Shown here piece by piece: positions 644-46,151 of a DNA stretch of 64,000 bases. How positions within the stretch are numbered: position 1 is the stretch's first letter; every line of letters begins with the position of its first letter. The position numbers were made by a program, and so were the translations under genes. Location: assembly GCF_013179575.1 (NCBI RefSeq), contig NZ_JABMCQ010000002.1, forward strand, positions 1 to 64,000, written 5' to 3'. The notes beneath the pieces were generated by a model, which was not told where the DNA came from, made no database searches, and saw only the letters and a program-made list of their open reading frames with translations. The stretch comes from Sphingobacterium shayense (GTDB lineage: Bacteria > Bacteroidota > Bacteroidia > Sphingobacteriales > Sphingobacteriaceae).

Positions 644-1549
644 ATGAAACACGTTCTATTTATTTATTTTTCCCAATCCGGTCAACTCGAAGAGATAGCT
701 CGTTCTATTGCGACCCCTTTATTGAATGATAGTGATATAGTTGTAGATTTTTATGAGATAAAGATGGTGCATGCCTTTCCATTTCCTTGGGAGTCTGATA
801 CGTTCTTTAATGCGTTTCCGGAATCATTTCGGCAAACTCCAGAGGAAATTCATCCCCCAGCACCAAAAATACTTGAAACCAATTACGATTTGATTGTGCT
901 ACATTATCAGGTATGGTACCTCACGCCGTCAATTCCCGTCAATTCATTTTTGAAGAGTAGATTTGCTCAAAAGATATTTATGAACAAACCTGTGGTAACG
1001 GTTAGCGGAAGCCGTAATATGTGGGCATTAGCACAAGATAAGATGAAGATTCTACTTAGTAATCTTCGAGCGGACTTAGTTGGTAATATTGCGTTGACGG
1101 ACAGAAACCATAATTTGATATCCGTTATAACAATAGTAGATTGGCTCTTTTCTGGAATTAAACGCAAAGCCTATGGCATTTTTCCGATGCCCGGTGTTTC
1201 TGAAGAGGAGATTCATGGGGCGTCAAAATATGGAAAAATTATTTTGAAACACCTGAAACAGGATAGCTATGTCGGTATTCAAAGTGAGTTAGTGAGAATG
1301 GGAGCTGTTGATTATCGTTTTTTCTTGGTTTCTATGGATCAAAAGGGGAACAGAATGTTTAGAATCTGGTCTAAACTTATTTTAGATAACCCTAAATACA
1401 GAAGCCGGTTAATCCGAGCTTTTAAATATTACGTTATTTTCGCAATTTACGGCATTTCGCCTATAGTGTATTTGATAGAGTTAGTATTTTTCCCACTGTT
1501 ATACTTTCTGAAATATAAAAAGGAAAGAAAACATTATCAAGGATTATAA
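644..1549 (+). CDS. darA: DarA-like dialkylresorcinol-condensing enzyme
   Basis: The 301-residue protein begins with a flavodoxin-like segment (residues 3-15, IYFSQSGQLEEIA), as in NAD(P)H-dehydrogenase/flavodoxin folds. It ends with a hydrophobic segment at about residues 265-292 that probably anchors it in the membrane. This layout and the single-base gap to a KASIII-like gene match the DarA/DarB pair that makes 2,5-dialkylresorcinols. DarB condenses two acyl precursors to a dialkylcyclohexenedione and DarA aromatises it. In flexirubin producers the resorcinol is then esterified with an aryl-polyene acid. The assignment rests on fold, length and neighbour; the chemistry is family knowledge. 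Confidence 0.85.
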   Translation: MKHVLFIYFSQSGQLEEIARSIATPLLNDSDIVVDFYEIKMVHAFPFPWESDTFFNAFPESFRQTPEEIHPPAPKILETNYDLIVLHYQVWYLTPSIPVNSFLKSRFAQKIFMNKPVVTVSGSRNMWALAQDKMKILLSNLRADLVGNIALTDRNHNLISVITIVDWLFSGIKRKAYGIFPMPGVSEEEIHGASKYGKIILKHLKQDSYVGIQSELVRMGAVDYRFFLVSMDQKGNRMFRIWSKLILDNPKYRSRLIRAFKYYVIFAIYGISPIVYLIELVFFPLLYFLKYKKERKHYQGL

Positions 1550-1550
1550 A

Positions 1551-2684
1551 ATGTTCGAAGTATATATAAATAGAATTTCAAAATTTCTCCCAAACGGTCC
1601 AATATCCAACGAGGAGATGGAATTATACCTAGGTAAAATAAACGATTATGAATCCAAAGCGCGACGAATAGTATTGCGGAATAACGGTATTCTAACACGG
1701 TATTATGCTTTAACTGAGGAAGGAAAGCCCACTCATACCAACGCCCAGTTAACGGCGGAAGCGATAAATGGATTGTTTGATAACGAGTTCTCAGCTAATG
1801 ATGCGCAATTGTTATCTTGCGGAACATCATCACCGGATTACCTTATGCCCTCCCATGCTGTCATGGTACACGGTGAATTGAGGAACTGTAACCTAGAGGT
1901 TAATTCGGCTTCAGGAAATTGTTGTGCAGGGATGAATGCGTTGAAATTCGGTTATTTGTCCGTAAAAGCTGGAAATACAGATAATGCCGTATGTGCGGGG
2001 TCTGAACGGATGTCTTCTTGGATGATTGCGGATCATTTTAGCCAAGAAATTGAAAATTTAAAGCAGCTCGAGCAGCAACCGACGGTTGCATTCAATAAAG
2101 ATTTTCTTCGATGGATGCTCTCGGATGGTGCAGCAGCAGTATTGTTAGAAAATAAAAAACGAGGACCGTTGGCCCTACGCATTGACTGGATGGAAGGCTA
2201 TTCCTTTGCTCATGAGTTGGAGGTGTGTATGTACGCTGGAGCAGAAAAGAAGGGGGATGGGACGCTAACTTCATTCTCTGACCTGCCTTCTGAGGAATGG
2301 TTACATAGGTCTATTTTTGCCGTTAAACAAGATACGAAGCTGCTGGATCAATATATTTTGGTAAAAGGTGTTGAAAGTATGAAGGCCGCAATGGATAAAC
2401 ATGGAATCACCCCGAGTGATATCGATTTTTTACTTCCGCATGTTTCGTCTCATTTTTTTGTGGAAGGCCTCTACGAAGGATTCGTACAGGCGGGAATTGA
2501 AATTTCCAAAGATAAGTGGTTCATGAACTTGAAGGACGTCGGAAATGTTGGCGCTGGATCGGTCTATCTAATGTTAGAGGAACTATTTGCTTCGGGCCGG
2601 CTAATAAAAGGACAACATGTGATGCTTTGCGTTCCTGAAAGCGCACGGTTCACTTACGCCTACGCATATTTAACTGTATGTTAA
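1551..2684 (+). CDS. darB: DarB-like ketosynthase III (dialkylresorcinol synthase)
   Basis: This 377-residue KASIII-fold protein carries a complete catalytic triad: Cys125 in GNCCAGMN (the Cys followed by Ala-Gly), His297 in LLPHVSSHF and Asn332 in VGNVGAGS. It is longer than FabH (about 320 residues), which fits the DarB subfamily. DarB joins an acyl-ACP/CoA and a beta-ketoacyl partner to form the cyclohexenedione precursor of dialkylresorcinol. It is translationally tight with darA (start one base after the darA stop) and overlaps the next gene, consistent with one operon. Confidence 0.88.
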   Translation: MFEVYINRISKFLPNGPISNEEMELYLGKINDYESKARRIVLRNNGILTRYYALTEEGKPTHTNAQLTAEAINGLFDNEFSANDAQLLSCGTSSPDYLMPSHAVMVHGELRNCNLEVNSASGNCCAGMNALKFGYLSVKAGNTDNAVCAGSERMSSWMIADHFSQEIENLKQLEQQPTVAFNKDFLRWMLSDGAAAVLLENKKRGPLALRIDWMEGYSFAHELEVCMYAGAEKKGDGTLTSFSDLPSEEWLHRSIFAVKQDTKLLDQYILVKGVESMKAAMDKHGITPSDIDFLLPHVSSHFFVEGLYEGFVQAGIEISKDKWFMNLKDVGNVGAGSVYLMLEELFASGRLIKGQHVMLCVPESARFTYAYAYLTVC

Positions 2685-3112
2685 TGAAAATACCTATCTC
2701 TGGCGTCGATTTAAAAGAGCTCATACCTCAAAAAGATCCAATTGTGATGATAAGTTCGTTAGAAACTTACCAAGAGAATGCATTACAATCGTCATTCTTG
2801 GTGACCAAAGAATGTATTTTTATTCAAGACGTTGAGCTTGCGGAGACCGGGCTTATAGAGCACATGGCTCAATCTGTCGCTTTGCATACTGGGTACAGTT
2901 TTTATTTGCAAAATTTGCCAGCACCTATAGGATATATTGGGGCTATACAGCACGTCGAAATCCATCTTTTGCCGAAAATCGGACAGACCATATATAGTGA
3001 TGTAAAGATTATACAAGAATTTTTTGGAGTCACATTAGTAGAAATAATTACTAAATTAGATGGAAAAATAATTGCTAAAGCTCAGATGAAAACCGTTATA
3101 GCCGCGCCGTGA
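2678..3112 (+). CDS. ApeP-like hotdog 3-hydroxyacyl-ACP dehydratase, first copy
   Basis: A 144-residue single hotdog domain. The central helix reads GLIEHMAQ with Glu61 in the place of the FabZ catalytic acid, but the HFPG loop that carries the catalytic His of FabZ is absent. This matches the ApeP type of dehydratase found in aryl-polyene clusters. It would dehydrate 3-hydroxyacyl-ACP during polyene elongation, perhaps with a His-bearing partner. Two starts are possible: ATG 2678 (7-bp overlap with darB) or ATG 2684, which forms a TAATG stop-start junction. Confidence 0.8.
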   Translation: MLMKIPISGVDLKELIPQKDPIVMISSLETYQENALQSSFLVTKECIFIQDVELAETGLIEHMAQSVALHTGYSFYLQNLPAPIGYIGAIQHVEIHLLPKIGQTIYSDVKIIQEFFGVTLVEIITKLDGKIIAKAQMKTVIAAP

Positions 3113-3573
3113 TGAACGAACAATTACAACAAATTGTTGTCGACATAGAAAATTTTTTACCCCATCGTAAGCCTATGTTGATGGTTGATAAGATAATTGC
3201 TATTTCGCCTACATATGTGTTGTGTAGCTTCGCGATCAACAGGGATAATATATTTGTTAGTGGGGATTTTTTCCAAGAAGTAGGGTTAATCGAAAATATG
3301 GCGCAGACCTGCTCATCCATAGTTGGACAAACGTTCTACGACCAAAATTATAATCCAATTTCGGATAAACGTATTATAGGTTTTATTTCTGCTATTAAAC
3401 AACTTTCGATATTTAATTTACCAAAAGTTGGAGCGAATATATCAACGGATTCCACATTGACTTCGCAATTTGACGGTGAAGATTACACCATTTGCACCAT
3501 GTTTGTCCAAGCTAAACATAACGAAGTGCTACTTGCAAATGCAGAGATCAACTTGTTCTTAAAAAAGCAGTAA
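3112..3573 (+). CDS. ApeP-like hotdog 3-hydroxyacyl-ACP dehydratase, second copy
   Basis: A second hotdog protein of 153 residues directly follows the first. It has the family start LPHRKPMLMVD and the helix GLIENMAQ with the conserved Glu. Like its neighbour it lacks the HFP motif. The two copies are divergent in sequence but alike in architecture, suggesting old tandem duplication or subunits of a heteromer. I chose ATG 3112 because it forms a TGATG stop-start junction with the upstream gene; an in-frame GTG at 3109 is the alternative. Role inferred: dehydration steps of polyene synthesis. Confidence 0.8.
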   Translation: MNEQLQQIVVDIENFLPHRKPMLMVDKIIAISPTYVLCSFAINRDNIFVSGDFFQEVGLIENMAQTCSSIVGQTFYDQNYNPISDKRIIGFISAIKQLSIFNLPKVGANISTDSTLTSQFDGEDYTICTMFVQAKHNEVLLANAEINLFLKKQ

Positions 3574-3575
3574 TT

Positions 3576-3980
3576 ATGAAGAAATCAGAAGTTCCTCAGG
3601 ATAACGGTCGCGTGTTTGAGAAAGGCTCACGGGAATTATATTACGCATTGGATGAAAATGGCGAATATACAACAGCGTTAAGTACAGGATGGGAGGTTAA
3701 GAATCAGGTTCAGGACCAAACGATGCTTGAGCTTCAAGAACGAATTGATCGTGCTCGAAACGATTTGAAGACAGGGTTGGTAAGCCCAATCGTTTATTTT
3801 ATGGAGTTACAACGAATGGACTGGCAGATTTTGTCGGACTATACAGGTATATGGAAGTGGCGGATTAAGAGACACGCCAGACCTAAAGTGTTTGCGAAAT
3901 TAAATGATCGTATTTTGAGTAAATACGCGGAAGCATTCGATATCGATATTGATGAGTTAAGGAAATATAGCGGCGTATAA
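3576..3980 (+). CDS. Small protein with degenerate HTH/Xre-like C-terminal domain
   Basis: A 134-residue soluble protein with no signal peptide. Residues about 70-132 are predicted mostly helical and follow the spacing of a five-helix Cro/CI-type domain: a first helix (YFMELQRMD), an HTH-like pair (WQILSDYTG and WKWRIKRHARP), then a long helix and an IDIDELRKY tail, the latter common in Xre-type regulators. It could be a DNA-binding regulator or a structural partner of the biosynthetic complex. It sits between the dehydratase and BtrH-like genes, 2 bp after one and overlapping the next by one base. Function not established. Confidence 0.6.
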   Translation: MKKSEVPQDNGRVFEKGSRELYYALDENGEYTTALSTGWEVKNQVQDQTMLELQERIDRARNDLKTGLVSPIVYFMELQRMDWQILSDYTGIWKWRIKRHARPKVFAKLNDRILSKYAEAFDIDIDELRKYSGV

Positions 3981-36571: not shown

Positions 36572-37096
36572 ATGCAGAAAATAGTTTGCTTTAGCTTGTT
36601 GTTGTTTTTTGGGCTGTCAGGTTGTCTCCTCGGGCAGGAGGGGTATCCTGTACCTAAAGTTAAAAATCTCCTGTTTTATGTGCAGCATAACCGAGGGTAT
36701 AATACTTTCTTTTATACATTGAATTTACAAGCAAACGGACAGATTGATCGTAAAGAACCTGTTGTTGTTCGTCGTCAGTTATTTGATGAAGATGGTGCGA
36801 TAAAGACGCTTACTGGTATCCAGAATCGCTTTGCCTACGGAGTGAAAGGTAGATTTGTGAATTCCAAACGTTATGAGTTTGCCTTGGCAGGGTATGCTAA
36901 TCAGGTTTTTCTTTTGGACCTTAGCGAAAGGAAACCGCGGGTAAAAACCATTGTTAATGGTCGTGAGATATTTCTGAATCGAATGTTCCTTTATCAAACT
37001 GAAGGATCAACAGGTTTAAATACTAAACTCGATTATATCTTGTTTTTCGGACTAAATACCTCCGTGCGTCCCGTGGTCGAAAAGCTTATACCGTAG
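36572..37096 (+). CDS. DUF4833-like secreted protein
   Basis: A 174-residue protein with signal peptide (residues 3-18, with a GCLLGQ segment that may be a lipobox). The mature part begins PVPKVKNLLFYVQHNRGYN and continues with a beta-rich domain matching the DUF4833 family, which is common in Bacteroidota and of unknown function. It is probably periplasmic. It is followed by a hairpin with a T-run. Confidence 0.7.
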   Translation: MQKIVCFSLLLFFGLSGCLLGQEGYPVPKVKNLLFYVQHNRGYNTFFYTLNLQANGQIDRKEPVVVRRQLFDEDGAIKTLTGIQNRFAYGVKGRFVNSKRYEFALAGYANQVFLLDLSERKPRVKTIVNGREIFLNRMFLYQTEGSTGLNTKLDYILFFGLNTSVRPVVEKLIP

Positions 37097-37707: not shown

Positions 37708-38811
37708 ATGAAGACATTTATTTCATTTCTTACTCCGTTTACGGGGGTAATTTTACTTGTAGCTAGTTGTACTGTGAAAAGTACCGAAAATAAATTGGAG
37801 CCCGCAAGGCAAGTTCCTGTTGTCGGCCTATCGGTACAGGATACGACCATTTTTAAAGAGTATATTGCGGATATTCAGGCCGCGAGAAACGTAGAGCTGC
37901 GCTCTCGCTTGGGAGGGTTTTTAGATAAGATTTACGTGGATGAAGGAGCGGTTGTCAATGCAGGCCAAGTACTATTTAAGCTGAATGATGAAGAGTATAA
38001 GGCAGACTATGCAAAGGCAGAGGCGGCTTTGAACATCGCAATTTCTGAAGCAAAGAAAGTCGAATTAGAAAAAGAACGCACAGAGAAACTGATTAACAAG
38101 AACATTGTATCGCACACGGAGCAAGAGCTGATGGCTGTCCAATATAGAGCTGCACTGTCTAAAGTTGAAGAAGCAAAGGCCGTCCTAAGTCAAGCGCGAA
38201 CTAAGTTATCTCAAACAGCTATTCGTGCTCCATTTAACGGTAGAATCAATAGGATATTGCTTAAAGCAGGATCATTGCTCGAGGAAGGATCATTAATTAC
38301 CACGATCTCTGATTTGAATGCGGTTAACGTGTATTTCGATATCTCCGAAGCTGAATACCTGAATCTTGCAAATGATTCCAGCTTTTCGAGCAACAATTTT
38401 AGGAGGAAAGTTAAGTTGATTTTAGCGAATGGTCAGGAATACCCTCACACGGGCGAGGCTCGAATTGTAGAGAGTGAATTTCAACCCAACACCGGGTCAA
38501 TTTCCTTACGTGCTAAGTTTCCAAATTCCGAAGGCTTATTGAAACATGGCGCTTCAGGCAAGATTGGTGTGCCCATTTCGACGGGTGTCACACATTTCGT
38601 CCATCAAAAATCAGTTATCGAAGTTCAAGATAAGGCTTATGTATACGTTGTCAATGACGACGAAACTGTAACCATGACTCCGTTCCTCGCGGGAAATCGT
38701 ATCGGACACTACTATGTGGTAGAAGGTGGGCTGGATAAGAACCAAAGGATAGTTTACGAAGGTGTACAGGGGCTACGTGATGGAATGAAAATTCGCGAAC
38801 TTAAAAAATAA
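37708..38811 (+). CDS. RND efflux periplasmic adaptor (membrane fusion protein)
   Basis: An HlyD/AcrA-type adaptor of about 367 residues. Start chosen at ATG 37708, giving a lipoprotein signal with lipobox LVASC; the upstream in-frame GTG at 37660 adds a segment without family likeness. It shows the lipoyl half-motifs (GGFLDKIYVDEGAVVNAGQVLFKL and TAIRAPFNGRINRILLKAGS, quoted in part), a coiled-coil hairpin between them and the beta-barrel. It links the RND pump to the outer-membrane channel. It starts the efflux operon, 49 bp before the fused pump gene. Confidence 0.9.
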   Translation: MKTFISFLTPFTGVILLVASCTVKSTENKLEPARQVPVVGLSVQDTTIFKEYIADIQAARNVELRSRLGGFLDKIYVDEGAVVNAGQVLFKLNDEEYKADYAKAEAALNIAISEAKKVELEKERTEKLINKNIVSHTEQELMAVQYRAALSKVEEAKAVLSQARTKLSQTAIRAPFNGRINRILLKAGSLLEEGSLITTISDLNAVNVYFDISEAEYLNLANDSSFSSNNFRRKVKLILANGQEYPHTGEARIVESEFQPNTGSISLRAKFPNSEGLLKHGASGKIGVPISTGVTHFVHQKSVIEVQDKAYVYVVNDDETVTMTPFLAGNRIGHYYVVEGGLDKNQRIVYEGVQGLRDGMKIRELKK

Positions 38812-38860: not shown

Positions 38861-41800
38861 ATGTTTGAAACTTATATTAAAAGGCCTATTCTATCGTTGG
38901 TGATATCTTTATTTATCACGCTACTAGGATTACTGGCTCTATTTACATTACCTATTACGCAGTTCCCTGATATTGTACCTCCTTCGGTGGTTGTTACGGC
39001 AAATTATACGGGAGCCAATGCAGATGTCAGCACCAATGCTGTAGCAATACCCTTGGAACGAGCCATTAACGGGGTGGCAGGAATGACATCAATGAATACG
39101 GTCACTACAAACAATGGGACGACCTTGATTCAAGTGGCATTCAAAGTAGGGGTTGATCCCGATGTTGCCGCTGTTAATGTACAGAACCGGGTAACTACGG
39201 TTTTAGATGAGTTGCCTGAAGAAGTTATTCGCGCTGGAGTGACCACGGAGAAAGAAGTGAACAGTATGCTGATGTACCTGAACGTGTACACGTCCGACGA
39301 AACTGCGGATGAACGCTTTATTTACAACTTTACTGATATAAATATTCTAAAAGAGCTAAAGCGGATAGAAGGTGTCGGATTTGCTCAAATTATGGGTATG
39401 CGCGATTACGCCATGCGTGTTTGGTTAAAGCCGGACAGGCTAGCTGCATACGAGATATCTCCAGACGAGGTGATCGAATCACTACGTAAACAGAATATTG
39501 AAGCTGCACCAGGACAAACAGGGATTAGTTCCGATAAAACTGTAAACATGCAGCAATATGTACTTCGATATCCAGGTAAATTTACCGAAGCCGAAGAGTA
39601 TGCAAACGTACCAATTCGTGCAAATAATGATGGGTCGATCATACGTATACGGGACGTAGCGGATGTTGAATTTGGGTCATTGGATTACGAAATGGTTTCT
39701 AAGACAGACGGACGTCCCTCTGCATCGATTATGTTGAAGCAGCTACCAGGTTCAAATGCTCAGGACGTTATTCAACGTGTAAAAGATCGCATGGAGGAAC
39801 TGAAAGCGGCTACTTTTCCTCCTGGGATGACGTACACGATGGGGTATGATGTGTCTCGTTTCCTCGACGCGTCAATCGCCAGCGTTATCAAAACCTTACT
39901 CGAAGCATTCTTACTTGTGTTCATTGTTGTTTTTGTTTTTCTACAGAATTTCCGCGCGACAATTATACCTATTCTAGCTGTTCCCGTTAGTTTAATTGGG
40001 GCATTGTTTTTTATGCAAATGATGGGGTTCTCGATTAACCTATTGACGTTGTTCGCTCTAGTGCTTGCTATTGGTATTGTTGTCGATAATGGCATCGTGG
40101 TCGTTGAGGCTGTTTATGCAAAAATGGAGGAAGAGCACCTGCCACCAATGGAAGCTACACTTGCAGCAATGAAAGAGGTGGGGACGGCGGTTATTGCTAT
40201 TACGTTAGTAATGTCAGCCGTGTTTGTACCCGTAGCGTTTTTGTCTGGTCCCGTGGGGATATTTTACCGACAATTCTCGTTAACATTAGCGTCCGCAATA
40301 GTAATATCAGGAATTAATGCTTTGACGTTAACACCAGCGCTTTGTGCCCTTATGTTGCGTTCGCCGCATGACCAAAAAGAATCGAATAGCTTGCTAACCC
40401 GGTTTTTCAAAAAGTTTAACAGTGGTTATGAAAAAATTGCAGGTCGTTATAAAGGTTTATTGGCTAGAATTGCAGGTCGTCGTATAATTACTGTTGGACT
40501 TTTGAGTTTATTTTTCGTGGCTACGTGGGGAACGAGTGCAATCCTTCCTTCCGGCTTTATTCCGACTGAGGATCAAGGGATGGTGTATGTTAGTGTCACC
40601 ACACCGCCAGGAGCAACGGTTGATCGTACGGAACGTGCATTGGATGAGGTCGATCGGATCGCAAGGGAGCTGGAGTCCGTAGAGACGGTATCTACTTTGG
40701 CTGGCTACAGTATTTTAACAGAAGTTTCTGGGGCTTCTTTTGGCATGGGAATGATCAATTTGAAGGCTTGGGACGAACGCAGTGTCTCGCTTGATGAGGT
40801 GATGGTTGAGTTACGCACGAAGACTGCGCATATCGCTGATGCTGAAATTGAGTTTTTTCCACCTCCGACTGTACCTGGTTTCGGTAATGCTGCAGGTTTC
40901 GAGATGCGTATACTTGACCGAAGTGGAAGTGAAGATTTAACGAAGACAGCGGAGATCGTTGATAAGTTTATCACTGAAATGAATGCTTCAGAAGCGATTG
41001 AATCTGCTTCTTCGAGTTTCGACGTCAGTTTCCCTCAATACATGCTTAATATCGATTATGATATGGCTGCTAAACTTGGTATTTCGGTAGAAAATGCCAT
41101 GAACACGCTTCAAACGTTGATGGGTAGTTTCTATGCGACGAATTTTATCCGTTACGGGCAGATGTACAAAGTCATGGTACAAGCTGACCCTCACTACCGT
41201 CAGACTCCAGAAGACGTTTTAAATTTGTTTGTCCGCACGGATCAAGGTGAGATGGTTCCGTACTCATCGTTTATCACGATGCGACGTGTTTACGGTCCCG
41301 AGCAAATTACACGCTATAATATGTTTACCTCAGCGATGGTTACCGGACAACCAGCTCCTGGGTTTAGTACTGGTCAAGCGATTGAGACCGTTCAAAAATT
41401 ATCCGAATCTTTGCCACAAGGTTTTTCGATTGAGTGGTCTGGGATGACGCGTGAACAGGTGATTTCTGGGAACCAAGCGATCTATATATTTGCGTTGTGT
41501 TTAGTTTTTGTGTATCTGCTTTTGGCAGCACAGTATGAGAGTTTCCTTTTGCCTCTTCCAGTTATTTTATGTTTACCAGCAGGTATTGCTGGGGCATTCT
41601 TTTTCCTGAAAATTTTTGGTTTGGAAAATAACATCTACGCCCAAGTGGCGCTTGTCATGTTGATTGGGCTGTTAGGGAAGAATGCTATTTTGATCGTAGA
41701 GTATGCTGTGCTAAAGCAAAAACAAGGAATGAATGTTATTCAAGCAGCGGTAGAAGGCGCTTATGCCCGTTTACGTCCAATTCTTATGACGTCTTTCGCT

Positions 41801-43426
41801 TTCATTGCGGGATTAATCCCTTTAATGATGGCAAGTGGAGCCGGTGCAATTGGCAACCGTACAATCGGGACAGCCTCAGTAGGCGGGATGTTTATCGGTA
41901 CAATTTTGGGAGTTATAATTATCCCCGGCCTCTTTGTGCTGTTTTCTAAAAAACGAAAGGTGAAAAAGAAAAAAGTAATTCCGCAGGTTATATCTATGAT
42001 CTTGATCGGGATAACCGTTGTCTCGTGTAACGTACCTAAAGAATTAGAGAAGGCGGAACATAAACCGTTGCCATCTCAGTTTGATTCGTTGATTATTAAT
42101 AAATCAGATACGACCTCGATAGCTAAGCTTCCGTGGCGCGAAGTATTTACTGACCCGCATCTTAAGAAGTTGATTGATTCGGCATTAGTTTACAATCACG
42201 ATATTCAGCAAGCATTAAAGCGAATTGACATCGCGCAAGCAAGTTTCAAACGACGTAAAGCAGCTTTACTGCCAAGTTTGGATGCTGCCGCAGAAGCTGG
42301 ATTGCAAAAGTATGGATTTTACACAGAATCGGGAATTGGAAATTATGACACCAATTTTTCTGAAAATCTTTCTGAGGATGAGCGGGTTCCTCAACCGGTG
42401 GTTCCAGATTTTTTTGTAGGTGTGCGGGCTTCTTGGGAGTTAGATTTATGGGGTAAAATTAAAAGCCAGAAGAATGCTGCTTATAACGCATTGTTGGCTG
42501 AAAATGAGGCTCGTAGACTTGTTGAAACCGAAATAATAACTAATTTGGCGTCCGCCTACTTTGAATTAATTAGTTTGGATGCGAAGATTAAGGTGTATGA
42601 CAATAATATCATCTTAAATCAGCAAGCGTTGGAAATTTCTGAATTGCAGAAGGAAGCGGGGCGTTCGACACAACTAGGTGTGCAGCAATTTAAAGCTATC
42701 GTCGCAAATGGAAAAGGAGAACGTGAACGTGTTAAACAAGAAATTACTAACCTTGAACATCATATAAACTTTTTGACGGGCCATTTCAATCGACCTGTTG
42801 TTCGTTCTACGGACAATATGATGGGGCAGCGGTTATTTAAGGAGTTGGGTACTGGAGCGCCGCTAGAGCTCCTTGCACATCGTCCAGATGTTCGTGAAGC
42901 ATCTTTTAGTCTACTAGAAGCCGAGTTTGATGTGCGATCTGCAAAAGCAGCATTTTTACCGTCAGTAGTTTTATCTCCGTATTTCGGCTTACAATCATTC
43001 AGTTTGAATAAATTGACGAATTTGGATAAATCATTAACGTATGGTTTGATAGGTGGTTTAACCGCACCTATTTTTAACCAGCGCCAACTTAAAACACAGT
43101 ACGAAACATTCAAAGCGCAGTATGGGCTAGATTTCTTAGAGTATGAAAAGCGGGTATTAAATGCTTATAATGAGGTTTCCAATGCCATAAAAACACAGGA
43201 GCATATTCAACAAAGAGAAATTTTCGTTACCGAACAAGTTGAAGCCTTAGGCGGAGCAGTCGAAGCTGCTAACGAGTTATTTATTGCCGGTCGCGCCAAT
43301 TATTTGGACATTATTACTGCGCAAAAGAATGCAGTGGAAGCAGAGTTAGAAGCTGTAGAGGTTCAAAAAGAAGGATTGATGAATGAAATCGTGATATACA
43401 AAGCCTTGGGCGGAGGTTGGCAGTAA
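38861..43426 (+). CDS. RND efflux pump fused to TolC/NodT-type outer-membrane channel
   Basis: One uninterrupted 1521-codon frame. Residues 1 to about 1035 are a complete HAE1/AcrB-type pump: 12 membrane segments in two groups, the VVDNGIVVVEAV motif with proton-relay Asp residues and the second-half block LLGKNAILIVEYA. After a Lys/Arg-rich linker comes a hydrophobic stretch and lipobox VVSC (Cys1056). Then follows an entire NodT-family outer-membrane efflux lipoprotein (LPWREVFTDPHL, ASWELDLWGK, RPDVREA) to the C-terminus. The pump and the channel would normally be separate proteins. Whether the product is cleaved at the internal lipobox is unknown. In-frame ATG 41996 (Met1046) could also start the channel separately. 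Confidence 0.9.
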   Translation: MFETYIKRPILSLVISLFITLLGLLALFTLPITQFPDIVPPSVVVTANYTGANADVSTNAVAIPLERAINGVAGMTSMNTVTTNNGTTLIQVAFKVGVDPDVAAVNVQNRVTTVLDELPEEVIRAGVTTEKEVNSMLMYLNVYTSDETADERFIYNFTDINILKELKRIEGVGFAQIMGMRDYAMRVWLKPDRLAAYEISPDEVIESLRKQNIEAAPGQTGISSDKTVNMQQYVLRYPGKFTEAEEYANVPIRANNDGSIIRIRDVADVEFGSLDYEMVSKTDGRPSASIMLKQLPGSNAQDVIQRVKDRMEELKAATFPPGMTYTMGYDVSRFLDASIASVIKTLLEAFLLVFIVVFVFLQNFRATIIPILAVPVSLIGALFFMQMMGFSINLLTLFALVLAIGIVVDNGIVVVEAVYAKMEEEHLPPMEATLAAMKEVGTAVIAITLVMSAVFVPVAFLSGPVGIFYRQFSLTLASAIVISGINALTLTPALCALMLRSPHDQKESNSLLTRFFKKFNSGYEKIAGRYKGLLARIAGRRIITVGLLSLFFVATWGTSAILPSGFIPTEDQGMVYVSVTTPPGATVDRTERALDEVDRIARELESVETVSTLAGYSILTEVSGASFGMGMINLKAWDERSVSLDEVMVELRTKTAHIADAEIEFFPPPTVPGFGNAAGFEMRILDRSGSEDLTKTAEIVDKFITEMNASEAIESASSSFDVSFPQYMLNIDYDMAAKLGISVENAMNTLQTLMGSFYATNFIRYGQMYKVMVQADPHYRQTPEDVLNLFVRTDQGEMVPYSSFITMRRVYGPEQITRYNMFTSAMVTGQPAPGFSTGQAIETVQKLSESLPQGFSIEWSGMTREQVISGNQAIYIFALCLVFVYLLLAAQYESFLLPLPVILCLPAGIAGAFFFLKIFGLENNIYAQVALVMLIGLLGKNAILIVEYAVLKQKQGMNVIQAAVEGAYARLRPILMTSFAFIAGLIPLMMASGAGAIGNRTIGTASVGGMFIGTILGVIIIPGLFVLFSKKRKVKKKKVIPQVISMILIGITVVSCNVPKELEKAEHKPLPSQFDSLIINKSDTTSIAKLPWREVFTDPHLKKLIDSALVYNHDIQQALKRIDIAQASFKRRKAALLPSLDAAAEAGLQKYGFYTESGIGNYDTNFSENLSEDERVPQPVVPDFFVGVRASWELDLWGKIKSQKNAAYNALLAENEARRLVETEIITNLASAYFELISLDAKIKVYDNNIILNQQALEISELQKEAGRSTQLGVQQFKAIVANGKGERERVKQEITNLEHHINFLTGHFNRPVVRSTDNMMGQRLFKELGTGAPLELLAHRPDVREASFSLLEAEFDVRSAKAAFLPSVVLSPYFGLQSFSLNKLTNLDKSLTYGLIGGLTAPIFNQRQLKTQYETFKAQYGLDFLEYEKRVLNAYNEVSNAIKTQEHIQQREIFVTEQVEALGGAVEAANELFIAGRANYLDIITAQKNAVEAELEAVEVQKEGLMNEIVIYKALGGGWQ

Positions 43427-43621: not shown

Positions 43622-44314
43622 TTAACTAACTAATAGTTTATAGCCTTTTCCATGTACATTCACAATTTCTACATTTGGATCTTCCTTAAGATATTTTCGC
43701 AGCTTACTTAGAAAAACATCCATACTACGGCCTGTAAAATAGTTGTCGTCATGCCAGATTTTCACCAATGCTTCTTCGCGGGTCAGAACGTCATTTTTAT
43801 TTAGACATAACAGTCGTAATAGTTCTGCTTCCTTGGTCGAGAGCTTTTGTTGCTGCCCTTTAAATGAAATGACTTGACTGGTGTAATCAAAAAAATAGTC
43901 TCCGATTTCGAACTTGTCAATAACCTCTTCATCTTTATCCTTGAGTGCACGCTTTAAAAGGGCATTTATTCGTAAAAGTAATTCTTCGACGCGGAAAGGT
44001 TTGGTGATATAATCGTCTCCACCGAGTTCGAACGCCTGTGTCTTATCTTCCATCATTCCTTTTGCAGTGGCATAAATAATAGGAACAGTCTTGTCCATTT
44101 TACGGATGTCTTTCCCTAAAGAGAAGCCATCTTTTTTTGGCATCATGACATCCAGTATACAAAGGTCATATTGATTATTGCGGAAGGCATTCAATGCTTC
44201 ATCTCCGTCTTGCGAGAGCGTAACGTCAAATTTTCCTTTTAATTCTAAATAGTCTTTGAGAAGTTCTCCCAAATTTGGGTCATCTTCAGCTAATAATATT
44301 TTCTGCATAAGCAT
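43622..44314 (-). CDS. OmpR-family response regulator (RprY-like)
   Basis: A 230-residue two-domain regulator. The receiver domain has the acidic pocket (LAEDDPNL), the phospho-acceptor Asp in CILDVMMPKKDG and the Lys of TKPF. The C-terminal domain is a winged helix of OmpR/PhoB type ending in VNVHGKGYKLLV. Its kinase gene lies 19 bp upstream. The pair resembles RprX/RprY of Bacteroides, but the orthology is not certain. It converges on the efflux operon, which could be a target (inference). Confidence 0.9.
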   Translation of the reverse strand: MLMQKILLAEDDPNLGELLKDYLELKGKFDVTLSQDGDEALNAFRNNQYDLCILDVMMPKKDGFSLGKDIRKMDKTVPIIYATAKGMMEDKTQAFELGGDDYITKPFRVEELLLRINALLKRALKDKDEEVIDKFEIGDYFFDYTSQVISFKGQQQKLSTKEAELLRLLCLNKNDVLTREEALVKIWHDDNYFTGRSMDVFLSKLRKYLKEDPNVEIVNVHGKGYKLLVS

Positions 44315-44333
44315 GTTCTGTTTTTAATCTAAA

Positions 44334-46151
44334 TCAATCTTGAGATTTATTTTTCAGGGGAAATGTTAGCTCAAAGACTGTGCCTTTATCTTTTTCACTT
44401 TTTACTTGAATATTCCCGCTTAATCGCCGAACAATGTCATTTACATAACTTAGTCCTAAGCCAAACCCTTTCACGTTATGTACATTACCCGTAGGTATGC
44501 GATAGAATTGATCAAAAATTTTTTCTTTTTGATCTTTGGTCATACCCATGCCTCTATCGGCGATCGTTATATGAATATCGTTTTTATTATTATAAGTTTT
44601 TACGGTAATCTCTGGAGCACCTTTGCTGTATTTTATGGCGTTGTCTACTAAGTTAAAGAATACGTTAGAAAGATGCAATTCGTCGCCAATCACTAGGTCA
44701 TCGTTCGCCGCAAGATCCATCGTTAATTTTCCGTTCGCTTTTTGTAATTGTAAGTTCATGCTGTCTAGGACGCCGGAGACCACTAAGTTAATGTGGACAT
44801 TTGTTTTTTCGATCTTAAGATTTTCTTTTTCTAGACGAGCGATGTTTAGTACGCGTTCAATATGGTTCCCTAGACGGACATTTTCGTCGTAAATAATATT
44901 TGCTAACCGGTTCACACGTCGTTCATCAGCAGCTATTTCTGGGTCACGTAGCGATTCGCTAGCAATCATAATTGTTGCTACTGGAGTTTTGAACTCGTGC
45001 GTCATATTGTTCATGAAATCCGTTTTCATCGCCGAAATTTTCTTCTGGCGGAAGATTATGATGAGTGTGTACGCGAAGGCTCCAATAAGAAGGCCCAATA
45101 AGGCGACCATCGGTAGAAGCATATAGCTCATTGTGTCCCTGATGACCGTTGATTTATTTGGGAAATAGATTGAAAGAAGTCCCGGGGAACTTCCTAAGTC
45201 ATTTTCGAACAAAAGAGTGCTATAGCGCGGGACTTTAGCATCAGCCTCGGGTTTCGTACTACGTATAGTTTCGAAAATAATCGTATTGCGATCATCCCTT
45301 ACTTCCATATTGAAAGGTGCGGCGATTTGTCTTTTGTTTAACTCCGCGTCCAATTCGCTACGGAGTAAACGTACGTTCACGCGTTCTTGAATTGGTCTTT
45401 TTGATAATTGTTCAGTAGCAGCAACACTGGTTAACAATTCTATATTTTTCCCGCCAATAACTGCGACACTATCATAGATATTCTGAGCGGCATCAAGCCT
45501 CAACTGATGCTCAAGTTGCTGAATTCTAGAAGCGATTTTTAAGTATTCTCGAGCGGGAAGAGCGCGAACAACCCAGTTAATTGTGTTGTAGGTGTTGGAG
45601 AACGCTAAGTAGCGTGTGCTATCGTCTTTTGCCGGAATTAGAGGGAGTTCTTTTGTGGCATACACGTCAACATTATTGTTTTGAATATCCCCCTCAATTT
45701 CGCCTGGGAGCACCCGAATTGTTACCAAGTGGTTATATCGTCGTCTCTTTACGTAGGTTTCATAGAAGGGATTTTCAACATACGCAACTAAAGGATATCT
45801 TGCTTTAAGTTTGTCTTCCTCGTCCTTAAATGCTTGTTCCGCTTCGTATTGCTGAATACGCAGTTCTTCAATTCTTTTTTGTAAAGCTATCTGCTGGTTA
45901 AGTTTTTCGTGTTTTGCCTGTTCTTGTCTATACTTCTCTTGTTCAACCTTTTGTTGATGCTGAAGAAAGTCATATACTTCTTGTTTTTCAATACGCCCAG
46001 CAACTGTTGTTAATGACGCTCGGACGGCTTCGTCGAAAAGTTGTGATTTCTGGATATAAGATTCATGAACAAAATAGTATTGCATAGCCATTACTCCCAG
46101 TAGCGCAATCGACATTAACCAAATAATCAGTGTAATACTACGTTTCTTCAT
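44334..46151 (-). CDS. Sensor histidine kinase (RprX-like)
   Basis: A 605-residue membrane kinase: TM1 at residues about 5-27; a periplasmic sensor part to about 340 that starts with a Gln/Glu/Lys-rich coiled coil (about 55-120); TM2 at about 344-368; HisKA with phospho-acceptor His385 in MTHEFKTPVATI; and an HATPase with NLVDNAIKYS, DRGMGMT and GFGLGLSY. It phosphorylates the adjacent response regulator. The extended coiled coil outside the membrane suggests mechanical or envelope-stress sensing, an inference. A TATTTTTG -7 box ends 5 bp before its start. Confidence 0.9.
   Translation of the reverse strand: MKKRSITLIIWLMSIALLGVMAMQYYFVHESYIQKSQLFDEAVRASLTTVAGRIEKQEVYDFLQHQQKVEQEKYRQEQAKHEKLNQQIALQKRIEELRIQQYEAEQAFKDEEDKLKARYPLVAYVENPFYETYVKRRRYNHLVTIRVLPGEIEGDIQNNNVDVYATKELPLIPAKDDSTRYLAFSNTYNTINWVVRALPAREYLKIASRIQQLEHQLRLDAAQNIYDSVAVIGGKNIELLTSVAATEQLSKRPIQERVNVRLLRSELDAELNKRQIAAPFNMEVRDDRNTIIFETIRSTKPEADAKVPRYSTLLFENDLGSSPGLLSIYFPNKSTVIRDTMSYMLLPMVALLGLLIGAFAYTLIIIFRQKKISAMKTDFMNNMTHEFKTPVATIMIASESLRDPEIAADERRVNRLANIIYDENVRLGNHIERVLNIARLEKENLKIEKTNVHINLVVSGVLDSMNLQLQKANGKLTMDLAANDDLVIGDELHLSNVFFNLVDNAIKYSKGAPEITVKTYNNKNDIHITIADRGMGMTKDQKEKIFDQFYRIPTGNVHNVKGFGLGLSYVNDIVRRLSGNIQVKSEKDKGTVFELTFPLKNKSQD

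Follow-up and report, generated by a model that had tools for sequence, protein, structure and literature searches.

A fused RND pump and outer-membrane channel gene in Sphingobacterium shayense, with a predicted internal lipoprotein signal at the junction

One open frame for a pump and a channel

The window analyzed here, a 64,000-nucleotide stretch of the Sphingobacterium shayense genome (contig NZ_JABMCQ010000002.1, positions 1 to 64,000), holds a single open frame of 1521 codons in which a pump module is followed by a channel module (Table 1). The first 1028 residues match positions 1 to 1020 of the 1021 in Pfam ACR_tran (PF00873) at 991 bits, making this a complete AcrB-type pump, and the protein is a member of the HAE1 pumps by the NCBIfam profile TIGR00915 (1038 bits against a cut-off of 940), with CmeB, MexB, and AcrB as relatives in the PDB. 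The second module is a complete NodT/OprM-type channel, a member of outer_NodT by TIGR01845 (253 bits against a cut-off of 210) and closest in sequence to OprM and CusC. Pfam OEP matched two stretches of the 1521-residue protein, the best of them being residues 1101 to 1307. By fold, Foldseek placed the channel with OprJ, CusC, OprM, and OprN, the best matches (OprJ, CusC, and OprM) reaching TM-scores of 0.81 to 0.86 on the target. The original prediction that pump and channel share one 1521-residue frame is borne out, since all 1521 codons are open and both NCBIfam profiles score above their cut-offs. An AlphaFold2 model of residues 984 to 1521, made with 45 fused relatives as input (mean pLDDT 78.9, low around the junction), gives in order the last pump helix, a low-confidence linker, a separate helix, an irregular segment, and the channel fold.

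Table 1. Features of the fused gene and the adaptor gene upstream of it, in window coordinates.
Feature	Position	Strand	Basis or remark
Periplasmic adaptor (MFP/AcrA-like), first gene of probable operon	37708..38811	+	TIGR01730 RND_mfp, 227 bits
Fused RND pump–outer-membrane channel gene	38861..43426	+	1521 aa; 89 non-redundant fused proteins found
AcrB-type (HAE1) RND pump module, residues 1-1028	38861..41944	+	PF00873, TIGR00915, PDB relatives
Lys/Arg-rich stretch SKKRKVKKKK, residues 1029-1038	41945..41974	+	Predicted cytoplasmic; putative n-region of internal signal
GTG (Val1034), only in-frame start here able to give n-region and signal	41960..41962	+	Judged unused
Hydrophobic segment VIPQVISMILIGITVVS, residues 1039-1055, 17 aa	41975..42025	+	Hydropathy, AlphaFold2 helix
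Cys1056, predicted lipidated, predicted first residue of mature channel	42026..42028	+	Conservation in fused proteins
NodT/OprM-type outer-membrane channel module, residues 1056-1521	42026..43423	+	TIGR01845, OprM/CusC by sequence, Foldseek

The adaptor gene ends 49 bases upstream of the fused gene on the same strand, as befits the adaptor of a tripartite RND system. We translate it from ATG 37708 (GTG 37660 in the ORF list), and its product is itself a predicted lipoprotein (MKTFISFLTPFTGVILLVAS-C21). In the ORF list no separate channel gene adjoins the operon, and a scan for promoters and terminators gave nothing decisive. A small DUF4833 protein is encoded upstream of the operon (36572-37096, plus strand); downstream and convergent with it lie a response regulator and a histidine kinase (43622-46151, minus strand), which may or may not regulate it. 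LspA, the signal peptidase II, is encoded in the same genome (at C43).

The source genome is a draft of 360 contigs, and a frame of this kind might come from a sequencing or assembly error that deleted a stop codon or a frameshift between two genes, the weak point that the original prediction itself had named. We reject this explanation, whose probability we consider negligible, because dozens of species share the fusion and because it is also present in single-contig genomes, NZ_CP038159.1 and NZ_LT906468.1 among them. The 89 non-redundant fused proteins come from Sphingobacteriaceae and a few other Bacteroidia, and fused relatives from many species show 63-89% identity. Among the matches listed for 201 genomes of the family, 50 span both modules without a stop and 9 have one stop between them. 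A scan of GTDB genomes returned 80 loci in fused and split forms; the fused ones are from Sphingobacterium, Pedobacter, Arcticibacter, Rhinopithecimicrobium, and one Sphingobacteriales MAG, and the split ones from Algoriphagus, Belliella, Emticicia, Arcicella, Flectobacillus, and others. Pump relatives and channel relatives in Bacteroidota also came from a search of a plasmid collection. A 1464-residue open frame first indicated at C328 was absent from the stretch retrieved, where the longest ORF was 1028.

The junction and its conserved cysteine

The junction reads SKKRKVKKKK-VIPQVISMILIGITVVS-C1056, with the positive n-region, the hydrophobic core, and the small residue followed by Cys that characterize a lipoprotein signal, and the lipobox VVSC is present at Cys1056 as had been proposed. 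This signal is internal, after 12 pump helices, and not at the N-terminus of the primary product. In the AlphaFold2 model, a helix (H57-72 of the model, residues 1040 to 1055) ends directly before Cys1056.

The same series of basic residues, hydrophobic segment, and [Ser/Ala/Gly]-Cys is kept in 89 of 89 non-redundant fused proteins, most of which form one group and so do not amount to 89 independent tests, and in which the Cys was picked under the requirement of a preceding Ser, Ala, or Gly (L019 and L020 also have an earlier Cys). Across these proteins the mean hydropathy of the 14 residues preceding the Cys has a minimum of 1.64 and a median of 2.14. The strict lipobox [LVI][ASTVI][GAS]C fits 46 of the 89, and the lipoboxes that depart from it, about half, mostly have Phe at −3 or Gly at −2. 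The Cys is the sole invariant column from the last pump helix to the channel (positions 41-118 of a 45-row alignment of fused proteins), and it is the only Cys in 80 of the 86 channels counted. The linker ahead of the signal differs among relatives in sequence and in length, with 23 to 63 aa between the end of TM12 and the Cys; one of them, L133 (G050:C1), carries a Gly/Asp-rich insertion of about 35 residues past the last pump helix and ahead of the internal signal. Fused and unfused proteins do not differ in how far the Cys lies from the first channel helix; where the motif could be located, this spacing is mostly 31-40 residues.

If the channel were produced separately by internal translation initiation, the start would have to be ATG 41996, from which the original prediction derived a second product, or GTG 41960, which together with the following KKKKVIPQVISMILIGITVVSC is readable as a lipoprotein signal peptide. 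The distribution of start codons argues against this route. All 50 unfused relatives with a recognized lipobox have an ATG positioned so as to yield a signal peptide, a somewhat generous count as these were scored over the whole channel frame, but only 14 of the 89 fused genes do (Fisher p 2.5e-25, indicative only, the sequences being related). With GTG and TTG also admitted, a suitably placed start exists in 28 of the 89, and 61 have none that would give an n-region. In the gene studied here, no Lys or Arg lies between Met1046, encoded by ATG 41996, and Cys1056, so this start, which is not conserved, leaves no positive charge ahead of the hydrophobic core and would not give a working signal peptide, and GTG 41960 is not conserved either, reading ATA in the nearest relative, L038. 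The second product from ATG 41996 is thus disfavored, and we consider initiation at either codon very unlikely, although internal starts might serve individual members, for example L133 or those Pedobacter sequences that have an ATG at −23. The signal and the Cys have thus outlasted the start codon, and the signal is retained as a feature of the protein.

A maximum-likelihood tree of 97 pump modules, from a quick search and with SH-aLRT as its only support measure, contains at least six changes between the fused and unfused states, all forced by starred branches, a count that on the pump tree alone cannot separate gain from loss. One of the six fused groups is the main Sphingobacteriaceae group; the other five (L122-L126, L079, L138, L172, and L173) are groups or single sequences, and signal and Cys are retained in every one of the six. 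Since split groups intervene between the fused ones on this tree, repeated fusion is a simpler reading than loss. In unfused relatives, the channel ATG mostly lies between 26 bases before and 17 bases after the pump stop, close enough for a short change in this region to fuse the two genes. The AcrB-channel fusions in L122-L126 (other Sphingobacteriaceae), L138, L172, and L173 involve paralogous or distant pumps, keep the junction Cys, and are probably independent. The S. shayense genome also encodes a paralogous pump and channel in overlapping frames (L003, at C132; pump 752-3925, channel from 3885), an arrangement that could give rise to a fusion.

Fate of the fused chain

If the chain were left uncut, 12 pump helices and a 13th, anchoring helix would stay joined to the channel in one covalent protein spanning the envelope. 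AcrB and TolC are both trimers, and with pump and channel both trimeric a 1:1 chain is conceivable; the single open frame and the lack of a conserved internal start are likewise compatible with it. This would, however, leave the invariance of the Cys unexplained, and the Cys would be held at the inner membrane although the stretch following it is not extended relative to unfused channels. In OprM, the lipidated N-terminal Cys is located at the outer membrane, with a helical barrel reaching more than 100 Å into the periplasm (PMC4790312); an uncut chain whose segment after the Cys is unchanged would not permit this placement of the Cys unless that segment is arranged differently.

The fusions of another RND subfamily bear on the same question. 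CusA-type fusions are common among the 198 Bacteroidia genomes searched, and S. shayense itself has two CusA-type metal RND pumps fused to a TolC-type channel (C77:411-4766 and C320:51-4406, both on the minus strand). CusA-type junctions carry basic residues and a hydrophobic segment followed by Ala/Gly-Gln in 31 of the 31 read, and a lipobox-like pattern in 1 of the 31. In Bacteroidetes, most substrates of signal peptidase I have Gln as the first residue past the cleavage site (PMC5837995), and the Ala/Gly-Gln of these junctions agrees with such a site. If cleavage matters, two fused families would be expected to keep two different peptidase sites, as these do; an uncut chain gives no reason to expect this and would leave the signal peptidase I site of the CusA-type fusions without an explanation. 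The single trans-envelope chain, also among the outcomes originally put forward, is less likely than cleavage by signal peptidase II, and we regard it as improbable.

On the evidence of sequence comparison, the fused gene quite probably encodes a precursor of two proteins, which signal peptidase II would cut at Cys1056 into a pump and a lipidated channel. Among the three alternatives originally proposed, we favor this one because all 89 fused proteins, set against 50 unfused relatives, keep the signal and the [SAG]-Cys, the start having been lost in most of them, because they do so in six groups, and because the CusA-type fusions keep a different site. It is favored further because the spacing between Cys and channel equals that of unfused proteins while the linker is free to vary, LspA is present, and there is no separate channel gene by the operon. 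Against cleavage stands the position of the site: signal peptidase II is familiar from signal peptides at the N-terminus, and an internal one behind 12 helices is unusual. The departure of about half of the lipoboxes from the strict pattern counts against it as well.

The predicted topology, processing, sorting, and function would then be as follows. The 12 pump helices would insert as in an ordinary AcrB-type pump, with a cytoplasmic C-terminus. The Lys/Arg-rich stretch would remain on the cytoplasmic side, and the hydrophobic segment after it would act as an internal signal peptide for the Sec machinery, by which the channel module would be carried into the periplasm. Lgt would lipidate Cys1056, and signal peptidase II would cut between Ser1055 and Cys1056. 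One product would be a 1055-residue pump that keeps the former signal peptide as its 13th helix; the other would be a lipidated OprM-type channel, sorted to the outer membrane. Together with the upstream adaptor, these two products, made in a 1:1 ratio, would constitute a tripartite efflux pump. The equal dosing that had been expected of every alternative would follow from a cleaved or an uncut chain, but not from internal initiation.

A wider reading, to which we give even chances, is that the Bacteroidia have a recurrent polyprotein strategy, in which fusions arise repeatedly, the peptidase is the same as for the free channel, and the 13th helix may be an AcrZ-like modulator. If so, signal peptidase II would process the AcrB/OprM types, and signal peptidase I, with its Gln, the CusA types.

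Relation to known systems

If the chain is cleaved, this would be a conserved case in which signal peptidase II acts on an internal signal that follows 12 membrane helices and in which one chain supplies both an inner- and an outer-membrane protein at a fixed 1:1 ratio. It would also be a natural system in which to test the subunit stoichiometry and assembly order of tripartite pumps. The fusion accounts for missing channel genes in Bacteroidota efflux operons, and many annotated “RND permease” entries of 1450-1550 residues include the channel too.

The pump is known and the channel is known; it is the precursor that is unusual. No natural RND-channel fusion, and no internal lipoprotein signal after a transporter, came up in a literature search that had most subscription journals outside its reach and is weak evidence of novelty; nor do the available parts of a tripartite-pump review and an outer-membrane-pore survey mention a natural RND-channel fusion. 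A precedent that the search did not return is the cytochrome b/c1 precursor encoded by Bradyrhizobium fbcH, in which a multi-helix membrane protein and a periplasmic protein are cut apart at an internal signal peptide. Unlike the RND-channel fusion, it yields no lipoprotein and has no outer-membrane partner.

Closer to hand, the CusA/CzcA-type fusions likewise have pump and channel in one frame and a signal-peptide-like segment at the junction, but they belong to another RND subfamily and carry a signal peptidase I site (Ala-Gln). The unfused pairs of Cytophagales and Flavobacteriia (for example in Algoriphagus, Emticicia, and Arcicella) share a pump at 63-67% identity, a related channel, the kind of signal peptide, and the spacing of the Cys, and differ in having separate, often overlapping genes. 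Like MexAB-OprM and AcrAB-TolC, the system described here has an AcrB-type pump, an OprM-type channel that is predicted to be lipidated, and an adaptor gene directly upstream; in contrast to them, pump and channel are written in one frame, and the pump would keep an extra C-terminal helix.
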